Assembly (NCBI GenBank): GCA_929200255.1
Contig: CAKMYZ010000005.1
Span: 62,001 to 126,000, forward strand
Direction of reading: 5' to 3'
DNA from: an uncultured Alphaproteobacteria bacterium
GTDB lineage: Bacteria > Pseudomonadota > Alphaproteobacteria > Rhodobacterales > Rhodobacteraceae
DNA: 64,000 nucleotides
Shown here one piece after another: positions 2,586-17,653 of the stretch. The notes beneath the pieces were generated by a model that saw only the letters and a program-made list of their open reading frames with translations, ran no database searches and was not told where the DNA came from. A program made the position numbers and the translations under genes. The stretch's first letter is position 1; every line of letters begins with the position of its first letter.

Positions 2586-3149
2586 CTAAGCCACTGAATG
2601 CGCCGCTGTGATCAACGCATGATGCAATGATCCGGCAGACGCGCGTGGGCCGAGGATGCGGATATGCGCGGGGTTGTTTCGCTTTATCAGAAAGCACCCC
2701 AGCTGATGGATCATCGTGCGCTGGGCATCACCTGCCGTCATCCGACGAATGGGCACCGCGCAGAGCCGCTCGCAAAGGTCGGGCATGGCAGGACCGATCA
2801 CATCAAAACACACCCAGGCGCCGGTTTGTTCCGTGATGGATGCGGTATCCCCAAAGCGGTCCTTGAGGTCATCCGCCAGCAATTCGTGCGTTTTGCGCGG
2901 TGCGCCAATCATCCATTGATCCGGCCCCATCCAGAACCCGGCTTCGGGGTCGTGAAGGACCGCCTTGCCCGGTTCCGGCACTGCCCCAAGCAGTTCTTTC
3001 AAGGTCGCGTGACAGGTGTTTTCATGACCCATCCGCGCGGCAACTGAGGCCAGCGCCAGCCCATCGTTTTCGGCGACTGTGATGTGATCGAATGTATCGA
3101 CCTGCGGTGCGTTGCCGCCCAACGCAGTTGTGGGCTGAAGATCATGCAC
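2586..3149 (-). CDS. soxG: Sarcosine oxidase gamma subunit family
   Basis: Fourth gene of the soxBDAG set and gamma subunit of a heterotetrameric sarcosine oxidase, cytoplasmic. The product is about 187 aa, normal for SoxG, and is related to the aminomethyltransferase fold (it contains SVAARMGHE and GAWVCFDV). The open frame extends upstream to 3206. I chose the GTG at 3149 because it has a strong ribosome-binding sequence (GAGGGGGAG) about 7 nt upstream and overlaps the soxA end by only 8 bp. The longer version would need 65 bp of overlap. Translational coupling to soxA is likely. Confidence 0.9.
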   Translation of the reverse strand: MHDLQPTTALGGNAPQVDTFDHITVAENDGLALASVAARMGHENTCHATLKELLGAVPEPGKAVLHDPEAGFWMGPDQWMIGAPRKTHELLADDLKDRFGDTASITEQTGAWVCFDVIGPAMPDLCERLCAVPIRRMTAGDAQRTMIHQLGCFLIKRNNPAHIRILGPRASAGSLHHALITAAHSVA

Positions 3150-6078
3150 GGAGCCGCTCCCCCTCTGGATCAATGAAATGCGCACTGGTGATTTCGACTT
3201 TGACATCGACGCCCGTCAGTGGGCTGACAAGGCGCATATGTTCGCCCATGCGGTCTGCGCCATTCTTGAGAAACCCAATCGCAATCGCATGATCCAGATG
3301 GGGTGAGTAACAGGCCGAGGTGACGTATCCCTGATCATGTGCAGCATCGACAGGGCCATCAGCATTCATCAGGTGGGCCCCTGCAGGCACCGGATCCTTT
3401 GGATCAATCGGCTTAAAGCCGACCTGATATAGCTGGCCTTCACCGTTCAACCCTTCACGTTCCGATAAGGTTGATCCGACGCTATCTTTTTTCTTGGACA
3501 CCATGCGCCCCATCCCGAGGTTGAGCGCGGTAGTTGTGCCATTCAACTCGTTCCCGGCGGCATGGCCCTTTTCGATACGCATCACGCCAAGCGCCTCGGT
3601 GCCATAGGGTGTCACGTCATATTGCGCGCCTGCCTCCATGATCTTGCGGATCAGCGCGTCGCCATATGCGGTTGGCACGGCAATCTCATAGGCCAGTTCA
3701 CCGCTAAAAGAGATCCGGAAGAGCCGTGCGCGCAATCCGCCACAGATGGTGATATTCCCGCAAGCCATGAAGGGGAAGGCATCGTTGCTGATGTCCTGAT
3801 CGACGATCTGTGACAGCAATTTGCGGCTGTTGGGCCCCGCAACAGCGTATTGCGCCCAGGCTTCAGTGGTTGAGATCACCTGCACATCCATATCGGGGAA
3901 CAAGCACTGCCGCACAAACTCCATATGCCGATAAACGGGCAGGGCATTTGCGGTTGTCGTTGTGACCACGAAGTGATCCTCGGCCAGCCGCGCGGCGGTG
4001 CCATCATCCATCGCAATGCCATCCTCACGCAGCATCAACCCATAGCGGGTCTTGCCGACGGCCAATTTGGCGAAACCGTTGCAGTATACCTTGTTCAGGA
4101 AACCTGCGGCGTCCGTGCCCTGCACATCGACCTTACCCAATGTCGTCACATCGCACACGCCAACAGAGTTACGTGTGGCCAGCACTTCGCGATCAACGGT
4201 TTCGCGCCAATGTGTTTCGCTGGCTTGTGGGAACCATTGGGCGCGTAGCCAATTGCCGACCTCGACAAAAACGGCACCCTGCGCCTCGGCCCATTTGTGG
4301 GACGGGGTCAGGCGTTTGGGGTGAAATTCCTGCCCGCGATGACGCCCGCCCAGCACACCAATCGCCGTGGGCGTGTAGGGCGGGCGAAAGATTGTCGTGC
4401 CGACCTCGGGAATGGTTTTGCCTGCAAGCTCTGCCATAATGGCCAACCCGCCCATGTTTGATGTCTTTCCCTGATCGGTCGCCATGCCAAGTGTGGTGTA
4501 GCGCTTGAGGTGTTCGACTGAGCGGAAGCCTTCCTGATGGCTCAGCTTGACGTCCTTGACCGTGACGTCGTTTTGCTGATCAAGCCAAGCCCGCGAACAG
4601 CCCTCGACGTACCAAAAAGGTTTGAGGTTGACCGGCGCATCCTCTGCCTGTGGCAGTTTTGGCAAGCGGCCCTTCAGACCCAGTGCCTGTTTTGCCGCAG
4701 CTGCACCGCCTTGCAGCGCGCCTGTCGTCGAAAGATTACCATTGGCCGCACCGGCAACAACCATTCCCGCAGGCAAATCAGCGCCCGGCACGAAGGCGGC
4801 AATGTCGTCGTTCCAGAGCGGGCGGCCGCGCTGATGGCAGGTCATATGGATATTGGGGTTCCACCCGCCCGACAGGCCCAGCGCGCCACATTCAAGTGTG
4901 CGCATGGTCCCATCGGCAAGCCTCACCTCGGCAAAGGTCAGGCCAAGCCTGCCTTTGGTGTTGACCAATTCACCATGCAGAACTTCGTAATCCAGGCTGC
5001 GTGGAACGTCAGGGCGTATATCAACAACCGCGCTGATCCTGACGCCCTTGGCATGCAAGTCAGCCGCGGTACGGTGCCCGTCATCATTATTGGTGAAGAT
5101 CGCAACGCGCTTATCGGCGGTGACGGCAAAACGATTGGCATAGGTGCGTAGGGCACCGCCCAGCATGATGCCGGGACGGTCGTTGTTTTCAAAGGCGATC
5201 GGACGCTCGGTCGCGCCTGCGGCCAGAATAGTCTTTTGCGTGTAGATCCGCCAAAGCACCTGTCGCGGTTTTCCCGCATCTGGCGCGTACATATGGTCGC
5301 TGACCCGTTCCACCGCCCCGTAAACCCCGTGATCAAACGCGCCGATGACCGTTGTACGTGGCATGATCCGGACATTGGGCAGGGTGGCCAATTCGCCCAC
5401 AACCTCTGCGGCCCAGTCAGCACCAGATTGATCACCGATTGTCAGGGTCTCACTGTTCAATCGTCCACCAAGTGCGAAATCTTCATCAGCGAGGATTACA
5501 TCTGCGCCCGCACGACCTGCTGTCAGCGCGGCCATCAGACCGGTGGGCCCAGCCCCGATGATCAACAAATCGCAATGCAGAAACCCTTTGTCATAGACGT
5601 CCGGGTCATCCTTGAGCGACAGCGATCCAAGGCCCGCGGCCTTGCGAATGATCGGCTCGTACAGCTTTTCCCAAAGGGCGGCGGGCCACATGAAGGTCTT
5701 GTAGTAGAAACCGGCCGTCAGGACGTTTGAGAAACGGTCGTTGATCGCCAGCAGATCAAAGCGCAGTGATCCCACCCGGTTCTGGCTTTTGGCCAGCAGC
5801 CCATCGTAAAGTTCAACAGTTGTTGCGCGTGTGTTCGGCTCTTGTCGTGCACCGTCGCGCAGTTCTACCAGCGCGTTGGGTTCTTCCGATCCAGCGGTCA
5901 GCGGCCCGCGCGGGCGATGGTATTTGAACGAACGCCCCATGAGCCGCACACCATTGGCCAGCAGCGCTGAGGCAAGCGTATCACCCGGGTGACCGGTGTA
6001 GGCCTTGCCATCAAAGGTAAATTTGCAGCTCTGGGTGCGGTCGATCTGGCCACCGGGTAGCCGGTTGACTTGCGTCAT
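3142..6078 (-). CDS. soxA: Sarcosine oxidase alpha subunit family
   Basis: Large subunit (978 aa, usual size) of heterotetrameric sarcosine oxidase, which oxidatively demethylates sarcosine to glycine with transfer of the C1 unit to tetrahydrofolate. Residues 1-90 resemble the ferredoxin-like 2Fe-2S fold of the family. Around residues 170-200 lies a dinucleotide-binding motif (GAGPTGLMAALTAG). The C-terminal part from about residue 590 is a GcvT-like aminomethyltransferase, folate-binding domain (GVCDVTTLGKVDVQG; CYSPHL). The start overlaps the soxD stop as ATGA. True substrate is uncertain given the sulfonate genes just upstream: sarcosine or another N-methyl amine. Confidence 0.95.
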   Translation of the reverse strand: MTQVNRLPGGQIDRTQSCKFTFDGKAYTGHPGDTLASALLANGVRLMGRSFKYHRPRGPLTAGSEEPNALVELRDGARQEPNTRATTVELYDGLLAKSQNRVGSLRFDLLAINDRFSNVLTAGFYYKTFMWPAALWEKLYEPIIRKAAGLGSLSLKDDPDVYDKGFLHCDLLIIGAGPTGLMAALTAGRAGADVILADEDFALGGRLNSETLTIGDQSGADWAAEVVGELATLPNVRIMPRTTVIGAFDHGVYGAVERVSDHMYAPDAGKPRQVLWRIYTQKTILAAGATERPIAFENNDRPGIMLGGALRTYANRFAVTADKRVAIFTNNDDGHRTAADLHAKGVRISAVVDIRPDVPRSLDYEVLHGELVNTKGRLGLTFAEVRLADGTMRTLECGALGLSGGWNPNIHMTCHQRGRPLWNDDIAAFVPGADLPAGMVVAGAANGNLSTTGALQGGAAAAKQALGLKGRLPKLPQAEDAPVNLKPFWYVEGCSRAWLDQQNDVTVKDVKLSHQEGFRSVEHLKRYTTLGMATDQGKTSNMGGLAIMAELAGKTIPEVGTTIFRPPYTPTAIGVLGGRHRGQEFHPKRLTPSHKWAEAQGAVFVEVGNWLRAQWFPQASETHWRETVDREVLATRNSVGVCDVTTLGKVDVQGTDAAGFLNKVYCNGFAKLAVGKTRYGLMLREDGIAMDDGTAARLAEDHFVVTTTTANALPVYRHMEFVRQCLFPDMDVQVISTTEAWAQYAVAGPNSRKLLSQIVDQDISNDAFPFMACGNITICGGLRARLFRISFSGELAYEIAVPTAYGDALIRKIMEAGAQYDVTPYGTEALGVMRIEKGHAAGNELNGTTTALNLGMGRMVSKKKDSVGSTLSEREGLNGEGQLYQVGFKPIDPKDPVPAGAHLMNADGPVDAAHDQGYVTSACYSPHLDHAIAIGFLKNGADRMGEHMRLVSPLTGVDVKVEITSAHFIDPEGERLRA

Positions 6079-6362
6079 TTGGACCGCCCCCTGGCGCGCG
6101 CCACATCGCGGGCCAATTCCACCTTGGAAATTTCATGCGTGACGGTGTTGCGGGTCACAACCAGCCATGAACGGTCGCCCGCCTCGTGAAACCACAACTC
6201 TTGATGCCAACCAGCGGGGTTCTCGCGCAGATAGGCGTATTCATAGAAATCCTGCCGTGCGGTTTCCGATTGCCAGTCCGGGCGGTCGATTAGCTTGGCA
6301 TCGCCTAGATAGGTAAACTCGGCAGCGTCACGCGGCCCCAATAATGGGTGGTCAATAATCAT
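6075..6362 (-). CDS. soxD: Sarcosine oxidase delta subunit, cysteine-less variant
   Basis: Small delta subunit (95 aa) of the heterotetrameric oxidase. The core ELWFHEAGDRSWLVVTRNTVTHEI and the GPRDAAEF segment match the SoxD family. In characterised SoxD a zinc ion is held by three cysteines and one histidine (Cys6, Cys9, His59, Cys63). Here the protein contains no cysteine at all. The N-terminal segment reads IIDHPLLGPR, His59 is kept and position 63 is Asp. The zinc site therefore appears to be lost. The gene lies between soxB (1-bp TGATG overlap) and soxA (4-bp ATGA overlap). Confidence 0.93.
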   Translation of the reverse strand: MIIDHPLLGPRDAAEFTYLGDAKLIDRPDWQSETARQDFYEYAYLRENPAGWHQELWFHEAGDRSWLVVTRNTVTHEISKVELARDVARARGRSK

Positions 6363-7612
6363 CAGTGCAAATTGGGCTGATTGCCCATCCCTTTTTCATC
6401 TATCATCAGGCCCTTTTCAAAACGGTCGAACCGGTAGGCCGCGGCGGTCGGATGGGGTGCGTCGTTCGCCAGAAAATGCGCAAAGCAAAAGCCCGACGCT
6501 GGCGTTGCCTTGAACCCGCCGTAACACCAGCCGCCATTGAAATAGAGCCCGTCGATATGGGTCCGGTCGATAATGGGCGAGCCATCCATCGACATATCCA
6601 TGATCCCGCCCCACATGCGCAGCAGACGTGCGCGGCCAAAGGCCGGGAAAATCGCCATGCCGCCTTCGCAAACGTCTTCGACCGTGGGCAGGTTGCCGCG
6701 CTGGGCATAAGAGTTATAGCCGTCCAGATCACCACCAAAGACCAGACCACCCTTGTCAGATTGGCTCACGTAAAAATGGCCCGCACCAAACGTCACGACA
6801 CCCGGTAGGACCGGTTTGAGGCCCTCGGACACAAACGCCTGCAACACATGACTTTCCATCGGCAGTCGCATATCGGCCTTGGACATCAGGCGGCTGGATG
6901 ACCCGGCAACCGCACATCCGATTTTCTTGGCGCCAATAAACCCACGCGAGGTTTCAACCCCAAGGCATTTGCCGTTCTCGATACGGAAACCCGTGACCTC
7001 GCAATTCTGGATGATATCAACGCCACGGCTATCCGCGCCCCGTGCATAGCCCCAGGCAACCGCATCGTGGCGCACTGTGCCACCGCGATGCTGAGCCAAA
7101 CCGCCTTTGATGGGGAACCGGGCGTCTTCTGTATTGAGGAAAGGATAGCGCGCCTTGATCTGCGCAGTCGTCAGCATTTCGGCATCGGCACCATTCAGCA
7201 ACATTGCGTTGCCGCGCCGAACAAAGGCATCACGCTGCGGATCAGAATGGATCAGGTTCAGAATGCCGCGCTGCGACACCATCGCGTTGTAGTTGAAATC
7301 CTGTTCCAGCCCTTCCCACAGTCTAAGCGAAAACTCGTAGAAAGGCTCGTTCCCATCAAGCAGATAATTGGAACGGATGATGGTCGTGTTCCGCCCCACA
7401 TTACCACCGCCGATCCAGCCTTTTTCAAGCACCGCGATGCGCTTTTGGCCATATTCCTTGGCCAAATAGTAGGCTGTGGCCAACCCATGCCCACCACCGC
7501 CAATGACGATGGTATCGTAATCGGGTTGCGGTTCTGGATCGCGCCATGCCGGCGCCCATCCTTTGTGGCCGGTCAGCGCCTCTTTTATGACCTTCAACCC
7601 CGAATAACGCAT
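6362..7612 (-). CDS. soxB: Sarcosine oxidase beta subunit family
   Basis: Flavin-bearing beta subunit (416 aa). It has an N-terminal dinucleotide-binding motif (TIVIGGGGHGLATAYYLA) and a D-amino-acid-oxidase fold. His182 in RHDAVAWG lies where the family carries its covalently bound FMN. The open frame runs back to 7828 but would then enter the preceding gene. The ATG at 7612 has AGAGAGGA 8 nt upstream and gives the usual family N-terminus (MRYSG...). The alternative ATG at 7621 sits directly on that ribosome-binding sequence. About 130 bp separate it from the upstream FMN oxidase gene, so co-transcription with the sulfonate genes is possible but not proven. Confidence 0.93.
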   Translation of the reverse strand: MRYSGLKVIKEALTGHKGWAPAWRDPEPQPDYDTIVIGGGGHGLATAYYLAKEYGQKRIAVLEKGWIGGGNVGRNTTIIRSNYLLDGNEPFYEFSLRLWEGLEQDFNYNAMVSQRGILNLIHSDPQRDAFVRRGNAMLLNGADAEMLTTAQIKARYPFLNTEDARFPIKGGLAQHRGGTVRHDAVAWGYARGADSRGVDIIQNCEVTGFRIENGKCLGVETSRGFIGAKKIGCAVAGSSSRLMSKADMRLPMESHVLQAFVSEGLKPVLPGVVTFGAGHFYVSQSDKGGLVFGGDLDGYNSYAQRGNLPTVEDVCEGGMAIFPAFGRARLLRMWGGIMDMSMDGSPIIDRTHIDGLYFNGGWCYGGFKATPASGFCFAHFLANDAPHPTAAAYRFDRFEKGLMIDEKGMGNQPNLH

Positions 7613-7743
7613 TTTCGACATCCTCTCTCCCGCAATGTGATGCAAGCAAGGGCAATGCGAAAATGAAGATCGGACAGGAACCACGCCATTTACGACAATG
7701 GGGCGATTTTCGGCGGTTAGAGGTTCGTCCCCGATAAGAAAAC

Positions 7744-8847
7744 TCAATCCAGAGGTAGAGCACCAAGCAATGACCGTTTGCCGATTTGGGCGAGGGTGAT
7801 ACTTGTCTCGGCGCGCAGGACGCTCCACAGTTCTTTCAAACCCTCTTCACCGCCCGCGGCGATGGCAAATTGCAGGATGCGACCGAGGAAGGTGAAGTTT
7901 GCGCCCTGCGCGTAGGCTTTGACCACGTCTTCGGCGCTGCGCAATCCGGTATCATAGAACAGGGGGTAGTCTGGGCCAAGCGCGTCCCTGATCCGGCGCA
8001 GTTCACGAATTGGGGGTGGTGCGCTGTCCAACTGTCGTGCCCCATGGCTGGAAACCTGGATCGCATCGACGCCAGCGGCTTTCAGCGCCACTGCGTCATC
8101 TGTGTCAAGCACACCTTTCACGACAAGTTTACCCGGCCACATATCCCGCAGACGGGCGAGTGTCTCCCAGTCCGCGCGCGCGCGGCTTTCGGTGCGGTCA
8201 AAGTCATAGCCGTCCATGTCGAAATTCGCCATTTGCGGCTTGCCCGCATAAAGCGATGAAAGCGACCAGCGCGGATGCAGGGCGAAATCAATGAACTGCT
8301 TGGGGCCCATTTTGAACGGCATGGTGAAACCGTGGCGCAATTCACGTGGGCGGCGGCCAACCTCTGCCACATCGACGGTAAGGACGATGGTGTCATAGCC
8401 GGCGGCCTTGGCCCGTTCGACCAGCTTGAATGTGGTGGTGCCATCACCGCTGAAATAGAGCTGAAACCAAGCGTTGCCTTCGGCCTCTTCGATCAGCGGC
8501 TCCATCGCTGTAGACGCAACCGTGGACACGCCCAATGGCACGTTCTCACGCGCGGCCAGTCGCGCCAGCATCATATCGGCACCGGGACCAGAAAGGTTGC
8601 ACATACCCATCGGGCTGATGCCAAAGGGCGCTTTGGTCGGCTTGTCCCAAAGGCGTACCGAAAGCGAGCGATCACTGACGTCGCGCAGGATGCGCGGCCG
8701 CAGTTCCAGTTGGTCAAAGGCCGCACGATTACGTGCGGCCCCCATTTCGGTGCCAGCGGCACCGTCGATATAGTCAAAGATCATCCAGGGAAGACGTTTG
8801 CGTGCCAGGCGACGGGCGTCTTCACTGGAATGGATCTTTGTGGGCAT
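7744..8847 (-). CDS. FMN-dependent 2-hydroxyacid oxidase, probable sulfolactate dehydrogenase role
   Basis: Member of the L-lactate dehydrogenase/glycolate oxidase family (367 aa). The catalytic set is visible: Tyr26 (FDYIDGAAG), Tyr131 (FQLYF), Asp159 (TVDV), Lys244 (VVKG), His268 and Arg271 (SSHGARQ). The gene begins directly after the comE stop codon, so the two are translationally coupled. Known family activities are oxidation of lactate, glycolate or mandelate to the 2-oxoacid. Next to hpsN and comDE, the inferred substrate is 3-sulfolactate with sulfopyruvate as product, the role called SlcD in roseobacters. Plain L-lactate dehydrogenase is the main alternative. Confidence 0.88.
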   Translation of the reverse strand: MPTKIHSSEDARRLARKRLPWMIFDYIDGAAGTEMGAARNRAAFDQLELRPRILRDVSDRSLSVRLWDKPTKAPFGISPMGMCNLSGPGADMMLARLAARENVPLGVSTVASTAMEPLIEEAEGNAWFQLYFSGDGTTTFKLVERAKAAGYDTIVLTVDVAEVGRRPRELRHGFTMPFKMGPKQFIDFALHPRWSLSSLYAGKPQMANFDMDGYDFDRTESRARADWETLARLRDMWPGKLVVKGVLDTDDAVALKAAGVDAIQVSSHGARQLDSAPPPIRELRRIRDALGPDYPLFYDTGLRSAEDVVKAYAQGANFTFLGRILQFAIAAGGEEGLKELWSVLRAETSITLAQIGKRSLLGALPLD

Positions 8848-9402
8848 TTAGCTGGCCACGGCCTTCATAAAACGGTCGCGGATCACCACCGGATCCATGG
8901 TGATGACAGGCAGCTTGATGTTTCCGCTGTCACATTTGCTGACGATGATTGTCATCTGCTTGCTGTCGATGGCGGCTTGCAATGCCTTGCCGGTGTCCAG
9001 GTCCTTGCACACGACCACGTTTTCGCACCCACAGGCCTTGGCGACATTTTCCAGCTTGGTCTTTTTGCCGGCATATGTCGGCTGATCCCCGGTGGACCCG
9101 TAAGAGCCGTTGTCGATGATCAACAGGATGTAGTTGTCCGCCACATTGTTGGCGATCGTCGGCAGGGTGCCAAGGTTGGTCAGAACAGAACCATCACCAT
9201 CAATGGAAATGACGGTCTTGTCTTGGGCCAAAGCAAGACCCAACCCGATGGAGGATGACAGGCCCATTGTGCCCAGCATGTAGAAGTTCCTGGCATTGTC
9301 GTCGATCATGTGCAGCTCTTGGCTGGGCAGGCCGATGTTACAGACGACAAGGTTGTCATGAAGGATTGGCGCGATGTCGCGCAGGATTTCAGAACGGATC
9401 AT
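8848..9402 (-). CDS. comE: Sulfopyruvate decarboxylase, beta (TPP-binding) subunit
   Basis: C-terminal half of a two-subunit thiamine-diphosphate decarboxylase (184 aa). The TPP motif runs from GDGSVLTN to LLIIDNGSYG at about residues 76-105. The start at 9402 overlaps the comD stop as ATGA. Together with ComD it should convert sulfopyruvate to sulfoacetaldehyde and CO2 in the cytoplasm. Phosphonopyruvate decarboxylase is the closest alternative, but no phosphonate gene is nearby, whereas DHPS and sulfolactate genes surround it. Confidence 0.87.
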   Translation of the reverse strand: MIRSEILRDIAPILHDNLVVCNIGLPSQELHMIDDNARNFYMLGTMGLSSSIGLGLALAQDKTVISIDGDGSVLTNLGTLPTIANNVADNYILLIIDNGSYGSTGDQPTYAGKKTKLENVAKACGCENVVVCKDLDTGKALQAAIDSKQMTIIVSKCDSGNIKLPVITMDPVVIRDRFMKAVAS

Positions 9403-9905
9403 TGGTCGCCGTAGCCTCCCCAAAAGGACGCATCCGTCAGGATGGCCACAGGTTTGTTGCACATGAAGGTGTATTTCAGGATCGCATCCAGCTCATCCGC
9501 ATCACTTTCCTTGTGGAAGTGATAGGTCGGGATGTTCATCTGATTCAGCAGTGCCTTGGTGTGCACGGCCATTTCGACCTGACAGGCCACAGGCTCGCGC
9601 AGTTCACCGCGGTAGCTGATCAGCATGGGCAGCGGCATACGGTAGTACTGCGTCAGCGTGGCCAATGTGTTGATGGTCACGCCAATTGCCGTGTTCTGCA
9701 TGATGATTGCCGGGCGCTTGCCGCCCATGAAGGCACCTGCACACAGGCCCATGCCCTCGTCCTCCTTATTGGACGGGATATGGAAGATTTCGGGGCGTGC
9801 TTCGACTTCGTCGATCACACCTGCCAACTGCTTACACGGCACAGTCGTGATGAAGGATACATCGTTGGCGACAAAGTCATCCACGATCTTGCTGCTGATA
9901 CTCAA
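9399..9905 (-). CDS. comD: Sulfopyruvate decarboxylase, alpha subunit
   Basis: N-terminal (pyrimidine-binding) half of the decarboxylase (168 aa). The segment IPSNKEDEGMGLCAGAF carries the acidic residue expected to activate thiamine diphosphate. The start is a TTG, supported by AGGAGA about 8 nt upstream. The frame left over from the deleted usp gene ends in a TGA overlapping this TTG, so ribosomes finishing that short frame could re-initiate here. The partner is ComE. Confidence 0.87.
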   Translation of the reverse strand: MSISSKIVDDFVANDVSFITTVPCKQLAGVIDEVEARPEIFHIPSNKEDEGMGLCAGAFMGGKRPAIIMQNTAIGVTINTLATLTQYYRMPLPMLISYRGELREPVACQVEMAVHTKALLNQMNIPTYHFHKESDADELDAILKYTFMCNKPVAILTDASFWGGYGDQ

Positions 9906-9959
9906 GGTTTAGATCTCCTGATGACGCCCGGACGGGCGTGTGCGTGAAAGGTGTATAGG

Positions 9960-10096
9960 CTATTTGGTATCGCGCGCCACATGAACGGGGCAGGGGACAT
10001 CCTGCCGCCATCGGCAAGCAGAGGTCGCGCGATATCAACGCTGGTTTCACCGACGCCATGGTCCAGGGCCAGAGGAGCAAGAATGCTCTTGTGCAT
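9960..10096 (-). pseudogene. Universal stress protein (UspA) remnant with internal deletion
   Basis: The first ~31 codons (MHKSILAPLALDHG, then IARPLLADGG) match the start of small UspA proteins, and the gene keeps an excellent AGGAGGT ribosome-binding site 6 nt before the ATG. Immediately after, the sequence encodes the typical UspA C-terminus (CPCPVHVARDTK and a TAG at 9962-9960) in a different frame. About 100 internal codons are missing. Read straight through, the original frame continues to a TGA at 9904-9902 and gives a 64-aa product without the ATP-binding core. The remnant lies between the alcohol dehydrogenase gene and comD. Confidence 0.82.
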
Positions 10097-10106
10097 AGCA
10101 TACCTC

Positions 10107-11108
10107 CTATAGGGTCGGGTCTGCGCCGTCGGGGCGCAGAACGATTTTGGGTGCCGCAACGATACCCGCTCGAATATCTGCAAAGGCCTGTGCGCCTTCG
10201 GACAGGGGCCGTTCCTCTGTCCAGTCTAACGCACCTAACCGCCCGTCGAAAATGGCTGCCGCGGTATCGCGGAAATCCTGGGCCGTATAGGTGTAGGTTC
10301 CGATGAATGTGATCTCTTGCAAGGTCATGCGCCGAATATCGAGCCCGCCGCTGCCGTCGCCCAGACCGATGTGCATGATGACGCCGCCGGGCCTTGTGAT
10401 CGCCGATGCATCCGCGCGTGTCGCTGCATAGCCAACACCGTCGATGACAAGATCCGCTTCGGTCACAGCACCGGGTTCGACGGCCGAGAACCCTTCTATC
10501 GCTGCCAATGTGGTGCGGCGCAGGCCGTTGGGTTCGATCACCTTGATGTCGGACGCACCGAAGGCACGCAGACACAAGGCCGCACCAACGCCAATCGCCC
10601 CGCCACCCACAACAACACAGCGTGCCTGTGACAAGGGCATATCCAACGCATCTGCACCAAGGCGCACGGCATGCCAGCCACAGGCCAGCGGCTCGGCAAG
10701 TGCCGCCTTGGCCAGCGGGACATGATCGGGCACTTTGACAAGGTTTTCGCTTGCCATCGCCACCAGTTCCCCAAAGGCACCTTCACGCGGCGGCATGGAG
10801 ATGATCATACGCTCCGGGCACAAGTTATCGCGCCCGGATGTGCAGGCGCGGCACACCCCGCAGCTGACCAGCGGATTAAGCGTGACACGGGCGCCATCAA
10901 GATCGCCCCCGGCGACAACACCTGCCGCCTCATGCCCCAAAATCAACGGTGCGGGCCGACGGTCGTCATGGCCCAGATAGGCATGCATGTCAGAGCCGCA
11001 GATGCCAGAGGCCTGCACCTTGATCAGGCTTTGCCCGGGCGCCGGTACCGGATCAGGCATACAGCGATACACCAGCGTTTCCACGCCATCATAAACAAGT
11101 GCTTTCAT
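10107..11108 (-). CDS. Zinc-type alcohol dehydrogenase (MDR), probable DHPS 2-dehydrogenase
   Basis: Medium-chain dehydrogenase of 333 aa. Visible are the catalytic zinc ligand region GICGSDMH, GHEAAG, a structural zinc cysteine set (CGVCRAC...C), and a Rossmann motif (VVVGGGAIGVGAA). Its start overlaps the SDR gene as ATGA. In DHPS-degrading bacteria, hpsN is followed by two dehydrogenase genes, hpsO and hpsP, proposed to interconvert the DHPS enantiomers through a 2-oxo intermediate. By position this would be the HpsP counterpart, but I do not assign the letter firmly. Confidence 0.85.
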   Translation of the reverse strand: MKALVYDGVETLVYRCMPDPVPAPGQSLIKVQASGICGSDMHAYLGHDDRRPAPLILGHEAAGVVAGGDLDGARVTLNPLVSCGVCRACTSGRDNLCPERMIISMPPREGAFGELVAMASENLVKVPDHVPLAKAALAEPLACGWHAVRLGADALDMPLSQARCVVVGGGAIGVGAALCLRAFGASDIKVIEPNGLRRTTLAAIEGFSAVEPGAVTEADLVIDGVGYAATRADASAITRPGGVIMHIGLGDGSGGLDIRRMTLQEITFIGTYTYTAQDFRDTAAAIFDGRLGALDWTEERPLSEGAQAFADIRAGIVAAPKIVLRPDGADPTL

Positions 11109-11866
11109 TTCGCGGTGAACCCCCCGTCAACCATAAGAACCTGACCTGTGACATAGGCCGATGCATCCGCACAGAGAAACAGCAGCGGGCCATCGATATC
11201 GGACAGGTTTCCATTGCGTCCCGCACAGGTTTGCGCGGCATTGCGCGCCGCACGTTCAGGATCTGAAAAGACCGGATCTGTCAGCTCTGTCGGGAAAAAA
11301 CCGGGTCCGATGGCGTTTGCGGTGATGCCATCCTTGGACCACGCCTCGGCCATGGCGCGGGTCAACTGGCCGATGCCTGCCTTGGATGCGCCATAGGCAA
11401 GACCACCGGGAAATGCGCGGGTTGTCTGTAATGACGCAAAGCTTACAATCCGCCCCCAGCCGCGCTGTTTCATCATTGGCGCAAAGGCCTGACTAAGAAA
11501 GAATGGTGCCGCAAGGTTGAGGTTCATGGTCACGTCCCATCCCTCCGGGGTCACGTCATCGGCGCTTTCGCGGGTATTGATGCCGGCGGCATGCACCAGA
11601 ATATCCGGCGCACCGAAAGGCGCGGCAATCTCGCCTGCAATCTGCGTGATTTGATCGCGCTGTGATAGATCTGCGGCAACCACAGCCGCGTTTTCGCCAA
11701 TCTCGCGGCTCCACTCGTCCAATGCGGCGGCGCGACGTGCCACGCCAACAACCCTGGCGCCAGCACGTGCCAAGACGGTGGCCGCACGCTGCCCAAGACC
11801 TGCGCTTGCGCCGGTGACGCAAGCGACCCGTCCGGTCAGGTCAAAAAGATCAGCAGGGTTACTCAT
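11105..11866 (-). CDS. Short-chain dehydrogenase (SDR), probable DHPS 2-dehydrogenase
   Basis: Classical SDR of 253 aa with the NAD(P) motif TGASAGLG, HAAG, catalytic Ser in SFASLQT and YGASK (Tyr and Lys). It ends in the typical SDR C-terminus (YVTGQVLMVDGG). It overlaps hpsN upstream by 8 bp and the alcohol dehydrogenase downstream by 4 bp. By gene order it fits HpsO, one of two dehydrogenases proposed to oxidise or racemise DHPS at carbon 2. Substrate assignment rests on context only. Confidence 0.85.
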   Translation of the reverse strand: MSNPADLFDLTGRVACVTGASAGLGQRAATVLARAGARVVGVARRAAALDEWSREIGENAAVVAADLSQRDQITQIAGEIAAPFGAPDILVHAAGINTRESADDVTPEGWDVTMNLNLAAPFFLSQAFAPMMKQRGWGRIVSFASLQTTRAFPGGLAYGASKAGIGQLTRAMAEAWSKDGITANAIGPGFFPTELTDPVFSDPERAARNAAQTCAGRNGNLSDIDGPLLFLCADASAYVTGQVLMVDGGFTAK

Positions 11867-13166
11867 GCGGTGTCAGGTCAAAATTTTCGCCGGGGAAGTA
11901 TTTGGCCAGTCGCACATCTGCGGCACGGGCGTGCCCTTCCATCCCTTCAAGTCGTGATATCCGAGCCGTTGCCTGCGCCACACGTTTGGAGCCCTCGCGG
12001 GTTGCCTGCTGCCATGTCACGATCTTCATGTACTTATGGACTGACAAACCACCGGTATAGGATGCCGCACCTGATGTCGGCAGGACGTGATTGGTGCCCG
12101 ACGCTTTGTCGCCATAGGACACGGTGGTTTCTTCACCAAGGAAAAGCGATCCATAACAACTCAACCGCGCCAGCCACCATGGCAGGTCTTCGGCCTGTAC
12201 CGTCAGATGCTCTGGTGCGTATTCGTCGGAACAAGCGGCCATGGCTTCGCGATCGGCGCAAACGATGACCTCGGCATAGTCACGCCACGCCGCACAGGCG
12301 TTGTCGCGGTTCACTTCCGGCAGGTCTTCGATCAGGTCAGGGACGCGCTGCATCACGTCCCTGGCCAAGGCTTTGTCATCAGTAACCAGCCAGACGGGAG
12401 AATTGTAACCATGCTCTGCCTGACTGACCAAATCGGTTGCCACAATATGCGGGTCCGCCGTCTTATCAGCCAAAATCAGGCTGTCGGTGGGACCTGCAAT
12501 CATGTCAATGCCGACGCGGCCAAACAGGATGCGTTTGGCTTCGGCGACAAACTGGTTGCCGGGACCAACAAGGATGTTGGCCTTGGGCAGGTCAAACAGA
12601 CCAAAGGTCATTGCGGCCACGCCCTGCACGCCGCCCATCGCCATGATTGTGTCTGCACCGCAAATATGGGCGGCATAGATGATCGCCGGGGCCACACCGA
12701 CGCCTGGACGCGGGGGCGATGCGACTGTGATGTGATTGCAGCCCGCGACCTTTGCTGTTGTCACCGTCATGATCGCAGATGCGATATGGCTGTAGCGCCC
12801 ACCGGGGACATAGCAGCCGGCGGCATCCACCGGGATCGCCTTTTGTCCGGCAATCAGACCGGGAACAATTTCATATTCGATATTGCTGACGGTGGCTTTC
12901 TGGGCCTCTGCAAACCGTTTGACGTTGTCATGGGCAAACTGGATATCGTCCTTCAGCTTATCAGGAACCAAAGCTGTCGCTGCTTCGATATCTTCTGCGG
13001 TGATGATCACATTGCCATCGTATTTGTCGAACTTGGCGGCGTAGTCCATTGCCTTAGCGTCGCCGCCTGCCTCGATGTCGTCAAGAATGCCTTTGACAAG
13101 GTCGTGGACATCCGACGCGCCGGACTGCGCCGTCAGCGTCGCTTTCTTAAGATATTCGCGGGACAT
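11859..13166 (-). CDS. hpsN: Sulfopropanediol 3-dehydrogenase, HisD family
   Basis: Histidinol-dehydrogenase-family protein of 435 aa that should oxidise (R)-DHPS by two NAD-dependent steps to (R)-sulfolactate. Family features: GPGNQFVAEAK, IAGPTDS, the zinc ligand segment VSQAEHG, ASGTNHVLPTSG, and EGMEGHARAADVR near the C-terminus. No other histidine biosynthesis gene is nearby. The surrounding genes (TRAP transporter, two dehydrogenases, comDE) match DHPS catabolism, which is why I prefer HpsN to HisD. Only 11 bp separate it from the TRAP large subunit gene. Confidence 0.9.
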   Translation of the reverse strand: MSREYLKKATLTAQSGASDVHDLVKGILDDIEAGGDAKAMDYAAKFDKYDGNVIITAEDIEAATALVPDKLKDDIQFAHDNVKRFAEAQKATVSNIEYEIVPGLIAGQKAIPVDAAGCYVPGGRYSHIASAIMTVTTAKVAGCNHITVASPPRPGVGVAPAIIYAAHICGADTIMAMGGVQGVAAMTFGLFDLPKANILVGPGNQFVAEAKRILFGRVGIDMIAGPTDSLILADKTADPHIVATDLVSQAEHGYNSPVWLVTDDKALARDVMQRVPDLIEDLPEVNRDNACAAWRDYAEVIVCADREAMAACSDEYAPEHLTVQAEDLPWWLARLSCYGSLFLGEETTVSYGDKASGTNHVLPTSGAASYTGGLSVHKYMKIVTWQQATREGSKRVAQATARISRLEGMEGHARAADVRLAKYFPGENFDLTPHE

Positions 13167-13177
13167 GAGGATTTGCC

Positions 13178-14506
13178 TTATTTGTAGATGTCAGGAAGCA
13201 AGGTCGTCGAAATCGCCGGAATATAGGCAATCAAGAGGACCACGATCAGCATGCACAACACAAACGGAATGGCGCGTGCTGCAATTTTTAGGATGGATTC
13301 ACCGGTGATCCCGGCCACAACAAAGAGATTCAGACCCAAAGGCGGGGTGATGAACCCCACCCCCAAAGCGGTAATCATCATGATGCAGAACTGAATTTCA
13401 TTCATGCCGATGTTTTCTGCCAGCGGCAGCAAAATCGGCGCAAGGATCACGATATTCGGCGTTGTCTCCATGACGCAGCCCGCTGCGATCAGAATGCCGA
13501 TCATAATCAGAATGAGGATCCAGGGTTCGTCCGTCAGGGCGGTCATTGACGCAACAAAACCCTGCGGAACACCCATGATGGCTAAGGCCTCGGCCAGGGG
13601 GGCTGAAAAGGCGATAATGGGCAGAATGATCCCGTTCACTTTGGCAGAGCTCAGCAGCATCGCCGGAAAATCCGCGAGCTTCAGCGTGCCAAGAACAAAA
13701 CCCATGATGATCGTCACGATGACCGCCGTCGCGCCCGCCTCGGTGGGTGTCATGCGACCAGAGAAAATGCCGTAGAAAATGATGCCGGGGACGATAAAAG
13801 CGTACCATCCGGACTTCAGCGCAACCAAAAGATTGCCAAAGTATTCCGCCATTGTGACGTTGCCGCCGCCTTCATAGCCGTAAATCCGGTTTACGATGAC
13901 GTTGGTGATCAGGATCGAGATCAGGATTGCCAGGCCTGGGATCACTGCGGCCAGGAACAAGGTTGAGGCTGAGATGCCCAACACCAGACCAATGATGATG
14001 TAGGCGATGGATGGCGGGATAAGGATACCGGTACAGGCACCCGCCGCCACCAGCGCGCAGGCGTAAGGGCGGGGATAGCCGCTTTCGACCAGGCGTGCGA
14101 TTGTCATCCGGCCAACCGCTGCAGCACCCGCCGCGTCTGACCCGGAAATCGCCGCAAACATCCCACAGACAAGCACCGTGGCCGAGCCAAATCCACCTTT
14201 CGCGAATTGCGTGAGGGCTTCGGCGACATCAAGAAACTTTCGACTAAGCCCGGTTCGGACCAGCACGTCCCCGGTCAATATGAACAGCGGCACAGCCGTG
14301 AGCGCAAAGGCGTCGATCCCGGTGAACAGGCTTTCCCCAACGGCACTGAGCGGCAGATCGCCGGACATCATCAGCATGACGATGGCAGCCGCACCAATGG
14401 ATGCCCAGACAGGGACAGCCAGTGCGATCAAGACAACAAACAGCATCACAGGCAAGTAGAAATCCCACCCAAGCTCGACCGTTTGACTAAGGGTGTTAAA
14501 CAGCAT
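13178..14506 (-). CDS. TRAP transporter large membrane subunit (DctM type)
   Basis: Hydrophobic protein of 442 aa with the many transmembrane segments of the ion-coupled permease subunit of a TRAP transporter (segments such as SGSDAAGAAAVGRMTIARLV and FITPPLGLNLFVVAGI are typical). It works with the small subunit and the periplasmic binding protein encoded upstream. It is followed after 11 bp by hpsN, so the likely substrate is DHPS. TRAP proteins of this role are called HpsKLM in roseobacters. AAGGAAAG precedes the ATG. Confidence 0.92.
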   Translation of the reverse strand: MLFNTLSQTVELGWDFYLPVMLFVVLIALAVPVWASIGAAAIVMLMMSGDLPLSAVGESLFTGIDAFALTAVPLFILTGDVLVRTGLSRKFLDVAEALTQFAKGGFGSATVLVCGMFAAISGSDAAGAAAVGRMTIARLVESGYPRPYACALVAAGACTGILIPPSIAYIIIGLVLGISASTLFLAAVIPGLAILISILITNVIVNRIYGYEGGGNVTMAEYFGNLLVALKSGWYAFIVPGIIFYGIFSGRMTPTEAGATAVIVTIIMGFVLGTLKLADFPAMLLSSAKVNGIILPIIAFSAPLAEALAIMGVPQGFVASMTALTDEPWILILIMIGILIAAGCVMETTPNIVILAPILLPLAENIGMNEIQFCIMMITALGVGFITPPLGLNLFVVAGITGESILKIAARAIPFVLCMLIVVLLIAYIPAISTTLLPDIYK

Positions 14507-14517
14507 TGGTTCTTTCC

Positions 14518-15030
14518 TTAATCAAACAGCGTGTCGCCTTCGAAAACGGGCTTGCCGTCACGAAGTGCGCGTAGATCGCGAATGAAAGATTGGGTAAGCC
14601 GCAGCATCATCAAGGCGAAACCCAGTGGCACCGCCATCAGCGCCCAGACCTTTGAGACACGCAAACCATCCGTGACCGATCCGAATTTGGCCGAGAGATG
14701 CACAGCCTCCCACGACCAGTAGAGCGCGATGATTGCGACAACGAACATCACGAGGTCACCGAAGATATACAACAGCGCCTTGGGCCGCGGCCAAAGGTAA
14801 TGCATGATCACGTCGATACGAATGTGGATGCGATCCTTGACCGCAACGGCGGCACCGATCCACGCCAGATAGATGAACGAATATCGCACAACCTCTTCGC
14901 CCCAGATTGACGAGTAGGAAAAAACTTCGCGTCGCAGAACTTCAACCGCCATCGTCACGACAAGCATGACGTAGAAAATCAAGAGCAGCCATCGTTCGGC
15001 GTTTTGATCAAGTTTGCGCAATATGTTCAT
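14518..15030 (-). CDS. TRAP transporter small membrane subunit (DctQ type)
   Basis: Four-segment membrane protein of 170 aa that pairs with the large permease subunit. The open frame reaches 15054, but the ATG at 15030 (MNILRKLDQ) has AAAGG at proper distance and gives the normal N-terminus. Typical DctQ motif WGEEVVRYSFIYLAWIGAAVAV is around residues 43-64. It lies between the binding-protein gene and the large-subunit gene. Confidence 0.9.
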   Translation of the reverse strand: MNILRKLDQNAERWLLLIFYVMLVVTMAVEVLRREVFSYSSIWGEEVVRYSFIYLAWIGAAVAVKDRIHIRIDVIMHYLWPRPKALLYIFGDLVMFVVAIIALYWSWEAVHLSAKFGSVTDGLRVSKVWALMAVPLGFALMMLRLTQSFIRDLRALRDGKPVFEGDTLFD

Positions 15031-15095
15031 GTGGCACCTTTCCGGCAGCGCCACGAAGTTGCGCTGTCTCAGATTCCGGTCATTGAAAATGGGAA

Positions 15096-15120
15096 GCAGG
15101 CGCCCCCTGCGGGCGCCTGC
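15096..15120 (-). terminator. Strong intra-operon hairpin after the TRAP binding-protein gene
   Basis: Perfect 10-bp inverted repeat (GCAGGCGCCC, 5-nt loop, complementary arm) 10 nt after the stop of the solute-binding-protein gene and before the small TRAP subunit. Only a mixed T-rich stretch (TTCCCATTTTC) follows on the minus strand, so it is probably a partial terminator or 3'-end mRNA stabiliser. Either would let the binding protein be made in excess over the membrane subunits. Confidence 0.7.
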
Positions 15121-15130
15121 CTAAACCGAT

Positions 15131-16279
15131 TTATGCGTCGTGGACGTAGTAACGGCCCATTGTGCCAGCTGCTTCAACCAGCTTCGCAAATGTCTCCATG
15201 GATCCGGCCAGTTCTACTTTGAAGCTGTCCCATTCAGCGTTCTGATAGCCGCCAACCGCTTGCCATTCGGCCAGCTGATCATCGGTGAGCGAGTGGAACT
15301 CGACACCGGCCTTGCGCAGTTCTGCCATGGCGTAATTGCGTGCGGATGGCACTTTGGCAAGGTTCTGGTGACGGGTGATTTCGGACGCTTCCATGATGCC
15401 GTCCTGTACGCCGGCTGGCATGGAGTTGAACCATTCCAGGTTACAGGAATAGACTTGGCTATCCGGCACGGCCTGCGTGAATGTCACGTGGCTTAGGATG
15501 TCTTTGAAGCCAAAGACCTCTAGCGCACCGACGGATGGATCAAGCGCATCGGCAACACCCTGTTTGATTGCAGAAGGTGTTTCACCCCATGCAACAGGTG
15601 TCGGGTTCGCGCCAACCATCCGGTAGTACTGCTGCAACATCGCAGAGCCGGGAACCCGGAATTTCACGCCATCCAGATCACCGGGTGTCAGAACCGGGCC
15701 AGAGCCACCAGCACGAACAGCAACAACGCGTGGGTCGATATTGACGTAGAACAGGGGTTTAAAACCTGCGGCTTCGACCTTTGGGTTCACTTCTTGCGCC
15801 CAGACGTCAGAATGCACAAGGTTGGTGAAACGCTGGTTGGAACCACACAGATACGGCATATTGATTAGGTCAACGACCGACGCGAATGGTGCAAAGTTTG
15901 ACAGCGAGTGCTGTGCCGCCTGAATTGTGCCGCCTTGTACTTTCTGAACCAGCGCGCCGCCTGCGCCCAGCTGACCACCGGGGGCGAGTTTGACATAGAC
16001 CTTACCGTCGGTTGCGTTCTGGATGTTCTCTTTGAGGTCCAGCTGCATGATGGGGTAACCGCGAGATGCGCCCAGCACATATGCAGTTGCAATTGTCATC
16101 ACATGCTCGGCCGCTGCTTCGCGATCGCGCTCTTCATTTGCAGACTGGGCTGCGGCCTCGGTTGACCACAATGTGCCCGCAGCGCCCGCGACAAGAGCGG
16201 CAGTGAAGCTACCTGTCCCGGCGAGCTTTAGAAAATTGCGGCGCGTGGCCGACTTCAGACTGTTTGTATCTTTTTCCAA
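15131..16279 (-). CDS. TRAP solute-binding protein (DctP family), Tat-exported
   Basis: Periplasmic binding protein (382 aa) that captures the substrate for the TRAP permease. The N-terminus carries a twin-arginine signal (TRRNFLKLAG, then a hydrophobic stretch ending near STEAAAQ). The open frame continues to 16477 but crosses the small upstream gene. I chose the TTG at 16279, which has GGAGG 8 nt upstream and places the Tat motif near the N-terminus. Substrate is inferred to be DHPS from the downstream genes. Confidence 0.9.
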   Translation of the reverse strand: MEKDTNSLKSATRRNFLKLAGTGSFTAALVAGAAGTLWSTEAAAQSANEERDREAAAEHVMTIATAYVLGASRGYPIMQLDLKENIQNATDGKVYVKLAPGGQLGAGGALVQKVQGGTIQAAQHSLSNFAPFASVVDLINMPYLCGSNQRFTNLVHSDVWAQEVNPKVEAAGFKPLFYVNIDPRVVAVRAGGSGPVLTPGDLDGVKFRVPGSAMLQQYYRMVGANPTPVAWGETPSAIKQGVADALDPSVGALEVFGFKDILSHVTFTQAVPDSQVYSCNLEWFNSMPAGVQDGIMEASEITRHQNLAKVPSARNYAMAELRKAGVEFHSLTDDQLAEWQAVGGYQNAEWDSFKVELAGSMETFAKLVEAAGTMGRYYVHDA

Positions 16280-16311
16280 TGGTGTGTCCTCCCTGGACCG
16301 TAACGTCTGCT

Positions 16312-16485
16312 TCATTCCTTGGAAGCAGCTTCCTTTTGAAGAATCGCGATAACGAACAAGATCGCGACCGCCAGCAAGAGCAGCATTTCGCCGATATCGT
16401 TCAGGAACGATGCATCTGCAAAAGAGCCAAGGCCAACATTCACAGAAAACGCCACAAACAAGATGATCGCTCCCCAAAGCGGCAT
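16312..16485 (-). CDS. Small two-segment membrane protein, first gene of sulfonate operon
   Basis: A 57-aa protein (MPLWGAIILFVAFSVNVGLG at the start, ending KEAASKE) with two predicted transmembrane segments. It has a strong ribosome-binding site (GGAGGAG, 7 nt before the ATG). It is the first gene after the LacI-type operators and precedes the TRAP binding-protein gene by 32 bp. I do not recognise a named family. Position suggests an accessory to the TRAP transporter. It is easily missed because of its length. Confidence 0.75.
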   Translation of the reverse strand: MPLWGAIILFVAFSVNVGLGSFADASFLNDIGEMLLLLAVAILFVIAILQKEAASKE

Positions 16486-16522: not shown

Positions 16523-16559
16523 TGTAAGCGCTTACATGACATCGATGCAAGCGCTTACA
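16523..16559. promoter_or_regulatory. Tandem LacI-family operators
   Basis: Two 14-bp near-identical palindromes, TGTAAGCGCTTACA (16523-16536, perfect) and TGCAAGCGCTTACA (16546-16559, one mismatch). Centres are 23 bp apart, about two helical turns. The AAGCGCTT core is the classic site type of LacI-family repressors. They lie between the divergent LacI-type gene and the sulfonate operon, so control of both is likely. Confidence 0.9.
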
Positions 16560-16636
16560 TTTCGAGTGGAATATTTTGACTATCTCATGCAGAGAGACAT
16601 CGATAAGAGTAGATCGGGACTTGATCTGGAGTTTTG

Positions 16637-17653
16637 ATGACGACGCAGCCAGCAATACCCACGCTTGAGGATGTGGCCTCCCTTGCCGAGGTGTCGACTG
16701 CGACCGTATCGCGCGCGATCAACTCTCCAGGGAAAGTTGCCCCTGACACACGCAGACGTGTCAATGAGGCTGTGGCAAAGCTGGGCTACTCACCGAACTT
16801 TGGCGCGCGCGCCATGGCCGTGCGGCGCACTATGACAATTGGTGCGATCATTCCTACTATGGAAAATGCCATTTTTGCGCGAGGGTTGCAGGCATTTCAG
16901 GATGAGTTGCGCATGCATGGCTATACGATGCTTGTAGCCAGTTCGGCCTATCGGGCTGATACCGAAGAAGAACAGATCAGGTCACTGGTGGCGCGCGGTG
17001 CAGATGCCCTTCTACTGATTGGCCATCACCGCAATCCCGACATTTACAAGTTCCTTGATGCGCAGAATGTGCCTGTGTTGATCACATGGGCGTATGACCC
17101 CGACGCCGATCGGCCCTCAATCGGATTTGATAACAAGGCTGCGATGCGGGACATGGCAGCGGAAGTAATCAGGATGGGGCATCGCGACCTGGCTTTGATA
17201 TCTGCTGAAACTGCTTCAAATGATCGGGCGTCAGCACGGCACAATGGTATTTTGACAGCAATGCATGAAGCGGGATTGCATCCCGAAGATCTCCACTATG
17301 TCGAAACCACCTATGGGATCGAAGAGGGTGCCGTCGCGTTCGAACGGGCCATGAGCATGATGCCTAAACCCACGGCAGTGTTTTGTGGTAACGATGTTTT
17401 GGCAGTAGGCGCGCTTGGGCGCGCACGGGAACTTGGTATCGCCGTTCCTGGCGATGTCTCCATCATCGGTTTTGATGATATTGAACTGGCGCAAGTGGCC
17501 CACCCACCACTGACGACGGTGCACGTCCCCCATCGTGAAATGGGGCGTCTTGCGGGGCTTGCTTTGGCGCAACTGCTCAACAAAGGGATCGCGTTGAAGT
17601 CTGTCGAGTTGCGCGCATCATTGATCTTCCGTGACACGCTCGCGCCTAGGTAA
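16637..17653 (+). CDS. LacI-family transcriptional repressor
   Basis: DNA-binding regulator of 338 aa. Residues 10-55 form the LacI helix-turn-helix and hinge (LEDVASLAEVSTATVSRAIN). The rest is a periplasmic-binding-protein-like sensor (PTAVFCGNDVLAVGAL, GDVSIIGFDDIE). The ATG at 16637 has GGAG 5 nt upstream. A TTG just before it is also open. It is divergent from the sulfonate operon with two matching operators between them, so it probably represses that operon and itself. The inducer is likely DHPS, sulfolactate or a relative. Confidence 0.93.
   Translation: MTTQPAIPTLEDVASLAEVSTATVSRAINSPGKVAPDTRRRVNEAVAKLGYSPNFGARAMAVRRTMTIGAIIPTMENAIFARGLQAFQDELRMHGYTMLVASSAYRADTEEEQIRSLVARGADALLLIGHHRNPDIYKFLDAQNVPVLITWAYDPDADRPSIGFDNKAAMRDMAAEVIRMGHRDLALISAETASNDRASARHNGILTAMHEAGLHPEDLHYVETTYGIEEGAVAFERAMSMMPKPTAVFCGNDVLAVGALGRARELGIAVPGDVSIIGFDDIELAQVAHPPLTTVHVPHREMGRLAGLALAQLLNKGIALKSVELRASLIFRDTLAPR

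Follow-up and report, generated by a model that had tools for sequence, protein, structure and literature searches.

Sulfonates link algae to marine bacteria, and 2,3-dihydroxypropane-1-sulfonate (DHPS) is an abundant one that is passed from the former to the latter. By which route would a bacterium that takes up DHPS complete its breakdown? The question is raised by a minus-strand gene cluster in a stretch of 64,000 nucleotides (the window) that lies on contig C5 of an uncultured Rhodobacteraceae bacterium, whose 3.6 Mb genome has an estimated completeness of 99.93%. An earlier note, made from the letters of the window, had read the cluster as a path from DHPS to sulfoacetaldehyde through the decarboxylase ComDE. 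Our analysis indicates that the locus is very probably an operon for DHPS import and degradation, predicted to lead from DHPS through ComDE to sulfoacetaldehyde, with exit by the enzyme Xsc. The closest relatives of its HpsN protein in a search for hpsN loci come from an uncultured Rhodobacteraceae isolate (97%) and from Roseobacter sp. CCS2, Loktanella and Yoonia strains (91-94%).

The predicted path from DHPS to sulfoacetaldehyde

As had been noticed before, genes for a tripartite ATP-independent periplasmic (TRAP) transporter, HpsN, two dehydrogenases, ComD, ComE and a flavin mononucleotide (FMN) enzyme are contiguous on one strand, the minus strand, and most of them adjoin or overlap. The two dehydrogenases are HpsO, of the short-chain dehydrogenase/reductase (SDR) family, and HpsP, of the zinc-dependent medium-chain (MDR) family. 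The transporter components DctP, DctQ and DctM are all present in the operon, as HpsKLM. In Ruegeria pomeroyi, hpsKLM is a DHPS importer verified with mutants (PMC10130141); by analogy, HpsK with HpsLM would import DHPS here.

In phmmer searches against solved proteins, HpsN scored 750.8 bits with 8wwe, deposited as (R)-DHPS dehydrogenase, and 509.6 bits with 8v35, whereas histidinol dehydrogenases reached 266.8 bits at most, placing HpsN closer to the solved HpsN chains. The protein retains the catalytic and zinc residues E319, H320, D353, H360 and H412, whose active-site roles come from PMC11131964 (which names H320, D353 and H360) and PMC11382572. Likewise, HpsO matches 8wwf with 403.7 bits and retains S145, Q147, Y158 and K162, and HpsP matches 8wwd with 464.1 bits and retains H59, E60 and E139; mutation shows that these residues of HpsO and HpsP are important for activity (PMC11131964). 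Judged by these similarities, HpsN would oxidise (R)-DHPS to (R)-sulfolactate, and HpsO and HpsP would turn (R)- and (S)-DHPS, with a presumed stereochemical fit, into sulfolactaldehyde.

From sulfolactate onward, the earlier note had expected oxidation to sulfopyruvate and then decarboxylation, and each of these putative steps has a match to a characterised or curated family. The FMN enzyme had been labelled an oxidase; a dehydrogenase, SlcD, fits better. It belongs to the FMN-dependent alpha-hydroxyacid dehydrogenases (FMN_dh, PF01070, 379.4 bits), and its closest relative among solved proteins is the (S)-mandelate dehydrogenase 6bfg. In Roseovarius nubinhibens ISM its best match, which is 76% identical and which we take to be the characterised SlcD, is encoded about 3 kb from comDE. 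Under the naming rules (R)-sulfolactate is of the L configuration, and an FMN dehydrogenase of the L type could thus accept the HpsN product without a racemase. SlcD is listed in PMC11131964 as acting on R-sulfolactate and is annotated as 'membrane-bound' in PMC4334477. We propose that SlcD, using FMN and probably feeding the respiratory chain, would oxidise sulfolactate to sulfopyruvate.

ComD and ComE are two separate subunits, each above the curated score for sulfopyruvate decarboxylase (ComD: TIGR03845, 148.5 bits against a cut-off of 147.95; ComE: TIGR03846, 248.9 bits against 221.5). ComE carries the GDG...N motif typical of thiamine-diphosphate enzymes. With thiamine diphosphate, ComDE would decarboxylate sulfopyruvate to sulfoacetaldehyde.

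The probable exit from sulfoacetaldehyde

Xsc would split sulfoacetaldehyde into acetyl phosphate and sulfite. The earlier note had placed Xsc elsewhere in the genome, and we found its gene on the same contig (C5:158761-160494, 909 bits against a cut-off of 676), about 33 kb past the window and about 80 kb from the hps operon. A search for pta, which the note had proposed, was also positive, with a gene for a Pta-type phosphotransacetylase adjoining xsc. Also encoded in the region (L008, G000:C5:150000-169500) are an acetate-kinase-family protein (probable ackA), a molybdopterin oxidoreductase and its DmsB-like iron-sulfur subunit (probable soeAB), a MocR-type regulator (probable tauR), a class-III aminotransferase (probable tpa) and a taurine-like ATP-binding cassette (ABC) transporter (probable tauABC); the gene names in brackets are our reading.

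Two other exits were sought. The lack of suyAB that had been reported for the locus extends to the whole genome as far as SuyB is concerned: the domain PF20629, which we assume SuyB to carry, has no match in this 99.93%-complete genome and is present in 5 of 14 control genomes. The proposed search for cuyA gave no match above the cut-off in the same genome; the single match to the family scored 28.6 bits against 289.4, and none was obtained at E 1e-20. The same search was positive in three of six genomes (R. nubinhibens, G037 and G002). Since neither the suyB domain nor the cuyA family gave such a match, Xsc is the only recognised exit.

We examined how often these genes travel together in a census of hpsN loci. 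From 567 confirmed loci the best 80 were taken (identity 84-97%), a choice that makes the census lean to close relatives; a gene was scored as present at a minimum of 50% identity and 80% coverage. The census loci hold comDE in 55 cases, slcD in 51 and both in 46, and 31 of the 80 hold all ten genes including hpsR, which argues that the cluster is not a product of chance. Where at least 6 kb of sequence follows hpsN, comDE is found in 50 of 64 loci, and its state changes 6 times among these 64 on a quick hpsN tree. Seven open reading frames (ORFs) that follow hpsP in five loci without comDE comprise one FMN enzyme, one peroxidase-related protein and five that are unmatched (NCBIfam, E at most 1e-10).

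At the level of whole genomes, 100 members of the family, the window's own included, were searched for comE (E 1e-55), xsc (E 1e-180) and hpsN (E 1e-130), which were found in 20, 61 (60 over the cut-off) and 47 genomes, respectively. Genomes with comE carry xsc in 18 of 20 cases, compared with 43 of 80 genomes without comE (Fisher p 0.0039), and hpsN in 17 of 20 compared with 30 of 80 (p 0.00014), both values being uncorrected for kinship. Three genomes have comE without hpsN (G006, G014 and G053) and two have it without xsc (G037 and G074).

In a published survey of HpsN loci (n=272), 93 were assigned to SuyAB, 51 to CuyA and 37 to Xsc; 29 organisms had both Xsc and CuyA, and exit genes were not always co-located (PMC11382572). 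These CuyA figures lend some weight to the view that sulfopyruvate leaves mainly by transamination to cysteate and a CuyA-type lyase, with ComDE as a side branch, as does G037, which has comDE and cuyA-family genes and no recognised xsc. For the present genome we regard such a route as very improbable, because its cuyA-family score is less than a tenth of the cut-off in a search that works in three other genomes. It is hardly credible that ComDE decarboxylates phosphonopyruvate, that the FMN enzyme is a lactate dehydrogenase and that both are in the hps operon by chance: the phosphonopyruvate decarboxylase model does give 134 bits with ComE and 77 with ComD, lactate dehydrogenase models do give 237.3 and 205.2 bits with SlcD and the genome does hold a gene of the phosphoenolpyruvate (PEP) mutase superfamily, but the scores are far under the respective cut-offs (312.5; 376 and 550), the PEP-mutase-superfamily protein reaches 50.6 bits against 319.55, and comDE and slcD so often stand together beside hpsN. 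This protein was the only candidate for a PEP mutase in the genome; as it falls so far under the PEP-mutase cut-off, a role of comDE in phosphonate metabolism was rejected.

Several observations nevertheless weigh against the path through ComDE to Xsc. ComD clears its cut-off by just 0.55 bits, and several neighbours of xsc (the acetate kinase, the DmsB-like subunit and the taurine transporter) are under NCBIfam cut-offs. The suyB test consisted of the single Pfam domain PF20629, and its controls included no suyB-bearing Roseobacter; that CuyA belongs to TIGR01275 is our assumption. In G037 a comDE-hpsN locus is accompanied by cuyA-family genes, and xsc gave no match there at E 1e-180; G074 likewise has comE without xsc, so ComDE need not imply Xsc. 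Finally, co-transcription is made less certain by the gap between hpsP and comD and by a stem-loop that may follow hpsK, in a scan where counts of terminator-like sites were close to chance.

On contig C11 of G037, the starts of hpsN and comE are 4 kb apart, and the genome has two cuyA-family matches, one of them over the cut-off; as it has no xsc match, its ComDE product is without an obvious use.

The pathway itself is already known. PMC11382572 describes it as the 'Xsc pathway' and lists organisms with hpsNOP-slcD-comDE-xsc (Jannaschia CCS1, Ruegeria ANG-S4 and Granulosicoccus), so the novelty that the earlier note implied falls away and the present genome is a further instance. It shares with these organisms the enzyme set and the predicted exit by sulfoacetaldehyde and Xsc: hpsNOP, comDE and xsc occur in one genome, and no SuyAB or CuyA match is over the cut-off. 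It differs in that xsc stands far from the hps operon, beside the taurine-like transporter. The hpsRKLMNOPQ-slcD cluster of Ruegeria pomeroyi DSS-3 (SPO0590-0598; PMC4334477) has the same regulator type, transporter and order of HpsNOP; there slcD directly follows hpsQ, whereas here comDE intervenes and hpsQ is a relic. In R. nubinhibens ISM, slcD and comDE lie within 5.2 kb (ComD 85% and ComE 73% identical to ours), but none of hpsN, hpsO and hpsP occurs in the 17 kb around them, and the genome has cuyA-family matches. The DHPS cluster of Cupriavidus pinatubonensis JMP134 resembles ours in HpsN, HpsO and HpsP and differs in its SuyAB exit and in its importer HpsU, of the major facilitator superfamily (PMC11382572); here the suyB domain has no match.

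A 57-residue protein beside the importer

The cluster had been taken to end at 16485, which is the ATG of a 57-amino-acid (57-aa) ORF and not the start of the TRAP binding protein. By tblastn, this ORF is found in all 51 loci that have hpsK and in none of the 29 that lack it (19 with hpsR abutting hpsN and 10 others); 24 of these 29 have at least 5 kb of sequence upstream of hpsN. Two more tblastn rows (L082 and L011, both with E above 1) were left out of the count, and a loose regular-expression count (a hydrophobic ORF in 49 of 49 loci) was left unused, its picks in L031, L062 and L078 being in the wrong frame. On an hpsN tree of 76 rows the presence of hpsK changes 14 times, and the ORF changes along with it in 6 of 6 well-supported independent pairs (p 0.031). 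Its occurrence thus tracks the transporter rather than the regulator, operators or enzymes. Since the ORF and hpsK are neighbours, their joint loss as one block could account for some of the co-occurrence.

Of the 100 family genomes, 17 carry the ORF, in one copy each. Sixteen of these copies start 3.3-4.5 kb from the start of hpsN, and the remaining one, in G087, is on a different contig of a fragmented assembly. All 17 genomes fall among the 24 with an hpsN at least 73% identical; the ORF was not found in the other seven (G005, G039, G050, G064, G071, G084 and G091), a set grouped by hpsN and not by hpsK.

In 19 of the 80 census loci hpsR abuts hpsN with no TRAP genes between them (for example L011, L012, L014, L018 and L024). 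A search for a replacement importer in L012, L018 and L024 covered eight ORFs, of which seven belong to non-transporter families and one has no match.

An alignment of 35 rows, the window's copy and those of 34 of the 51 loci, has 13 invariant columns out of 57 and is conserved along its whole length, and a stretch resembling a ribosome site precedes the ORF in 30 of the 35. The ratio of nonsynonymous to synonymous change (pN/pS) is 0.33 in this frame (pN is the lower of the two in all 595 pairs), compared with 1.0 and 1.5 for the two alternative frames. Third codon positions are the most variable. The ORF is under purifying selection. AlphaFold models its product as a hairpin of two helices (residues 2-22 and 26-56; mean predicted local distance difference test score, pLDDT, 87); the C-terminus is basic, suggesting that both ends would lie in the cytoplasm and the acidic turn with D30 and E33 outside.

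The window's copy has no match in Pfam or NCBIfam, and of two relatives scanned, one gave weak matches only, far under the cut-offs. Among the best 120 of 1330 homologues most are nameless, and the names that could be read are all 'hypothetical' or 'uncharacterized'; the accessible parts of the literature searched contain no description of the ORF. To our knowledge, TRAP transporters are otherwise described as tripartite. We tentatively suggest that the protein may be a fourth, dedicated subunit of HpsKLM in Roseobacteraceae, a hairpin of about 57-62 residues with invariant N16, D30 and E33 that would be required for assembly of HpsKLM, docking of the binding protein or activity. The ORF lies between the operators and hpsK, and its stop is 32 bp before the likely hpsK start, a position that would suit a mere leader peptide controlling hpsK translation without a protein job of its own. 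We consider this unlikely in view of the whole-length conservation with its invariant columns, the low pN/pS in this frame compared with the others and the two-helix model; a small importer subunit is most likely the better account of the two.

Putative operators and layout of the cluster

The regulator that the earlier note had counted in the locus is present as a LacI-type gene, hpsR, but it is divergent and lies beyond the end then given to the cluster. Its position is the same in most relatives, and its R. pomeroyi counterpart SPO0590 is annotated as LacI-type (PMC4334477). Two putative operator boxes lie between hpsR and the 57-aa ORF, and a genome-wide scan at one mismatch or fewer finds no others. 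Among the 68 of 80 loci that could be tested, those with hpsR on the minus strand, 66 have a box with at most two mismatches, compared with 0 of 68 control stretches of equal length inside hpsN, and 63 have a second best site with at most three. Six genome sites with two mismatches were dismissed: allowing up to two gives 8 sites, compared with 12 for a reversed-pattern control.

The pattern resembles what we take to be the general LacI-family operator, so it is position, not sequence alone, that ties the boxes to HpsR. We infer that HpsR binds the pair, through which it would most likely repress the operon as long as neither DHPS nor a product is bound. The genome scan found no operator at one mismatch or fewer near xsc; xsc is therefore probably controlled separately, outside the HpsR regulon. 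No description of the operator pair was present in the accessible parts of the literature searched.

The minus-strand genes are listed in Table 1 in 5' to 3' order. The hpsL-hpsM and hpsM-hpsN spacings are 11 bp each, hpsN/hpsO, hpsO/hpsP and comD/comE overlap, and comE adjoins slcD. Wider gaps separate hpsK from hpsL (about 100 bp) and hpsP from comD (about 200 bp, filled by the hpsQ relic). A frame comparison shows an open hpsQ frame in L010, which is the nearest relative, as well as in L011, L013, L015, L020 and L023; the R. pomeroyi hpsQ, at the corresponding position, encodes UspA (PMC4334477). Scans for promoters and terminators gave counts near those of shuffled sequence (7 compared with 5.5, and 12 compared with 10.7), and nothing was drawn from either. 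After slcD comes a sarcosine-oxidase-like gene set, named by eye (window 3142-7828, minus strand). Of the 80 loci, only two have its first gene: L010 at the matching position and L013 about 4 kb further on.

Table 1. Features of the hps-comDE-slcD cluster, with positions in the window and the basis of each assignment
Feature	Position	Strand	Basis and remarks
hpsR, LacI-family regulator	16634-17653	+	divergent; Pfam LacI and Peripla_BP_3 matches
Putative operator box nearer hpsR, TGTAAGCGCTTGCA on minus strand	16546-16559		LacI-type; sequence reading and genome scan
Putative operator box, perfect palindrome TGTAAGCGCTTACA	16523-16536		sequence reading and genome scan; 23 bp from other box
57-aa two-helix membrane protein, unnamed	16312-16485	-	tblastn, alignment, pN/pS, AlphaFold; first gene past operators
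hpsK, TRAP binding protein DctP	15131-16279	-	PF03480; twin-arginine-like N-terminus; TTG start likely (by reading)
hpsL, TRAP small permease DctQ	about 14518-15030	-	PF04290; inner ATG assigned as start
hpsM, TRAP large permease DctM	13178-14506	-	PF06808; TIGR00786 above cut-off
hpsN, probable (R)-DHPS 3-dehydrogenase	11859-13166	-	phmmer against 8wwe and 8v35; active-site residues
hpsO, probable (R)-DHPS dehydrogenase, SDR family	11105-11866	-	match to 8wwf; active-site residues
hpsP, probable (S)-DHPS dehydrogenase, zinc MDR family	10107-11108	-	match to 8wwd; active-site residues
hpsQ relic, internal deletion	about 9906-10096	-	name from position only, not from library match
comD, probable sulfopyruvate decarboxylase alpha	9399-9905	-	TIGR03845; TTG start
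comE, probable sulfopyruvate decarboxylase beta	8848-9402	-	TIGR03846; ATG at about 9402
slcD, probable FMN-dependent sulfolactate dehydrogenase	7744-8847	-	PF01070 and similarity to R. nubinhibens gene

The organism is a clean test case for single deletions: neither SuyAB nor CuyA is recognised in it, and DHPS should be degraded through ComDE and Xsc alone. How the hps operon and xsc are matched, given that the two regulons appear to be controlled separately, is a question that this genome raises. The remaining interest of the locus lies in the operator pair and the 57-aa protein, which, if it is indeed a part of the transporter, would alter our view of an importer that has already been the subject of mutant studies.

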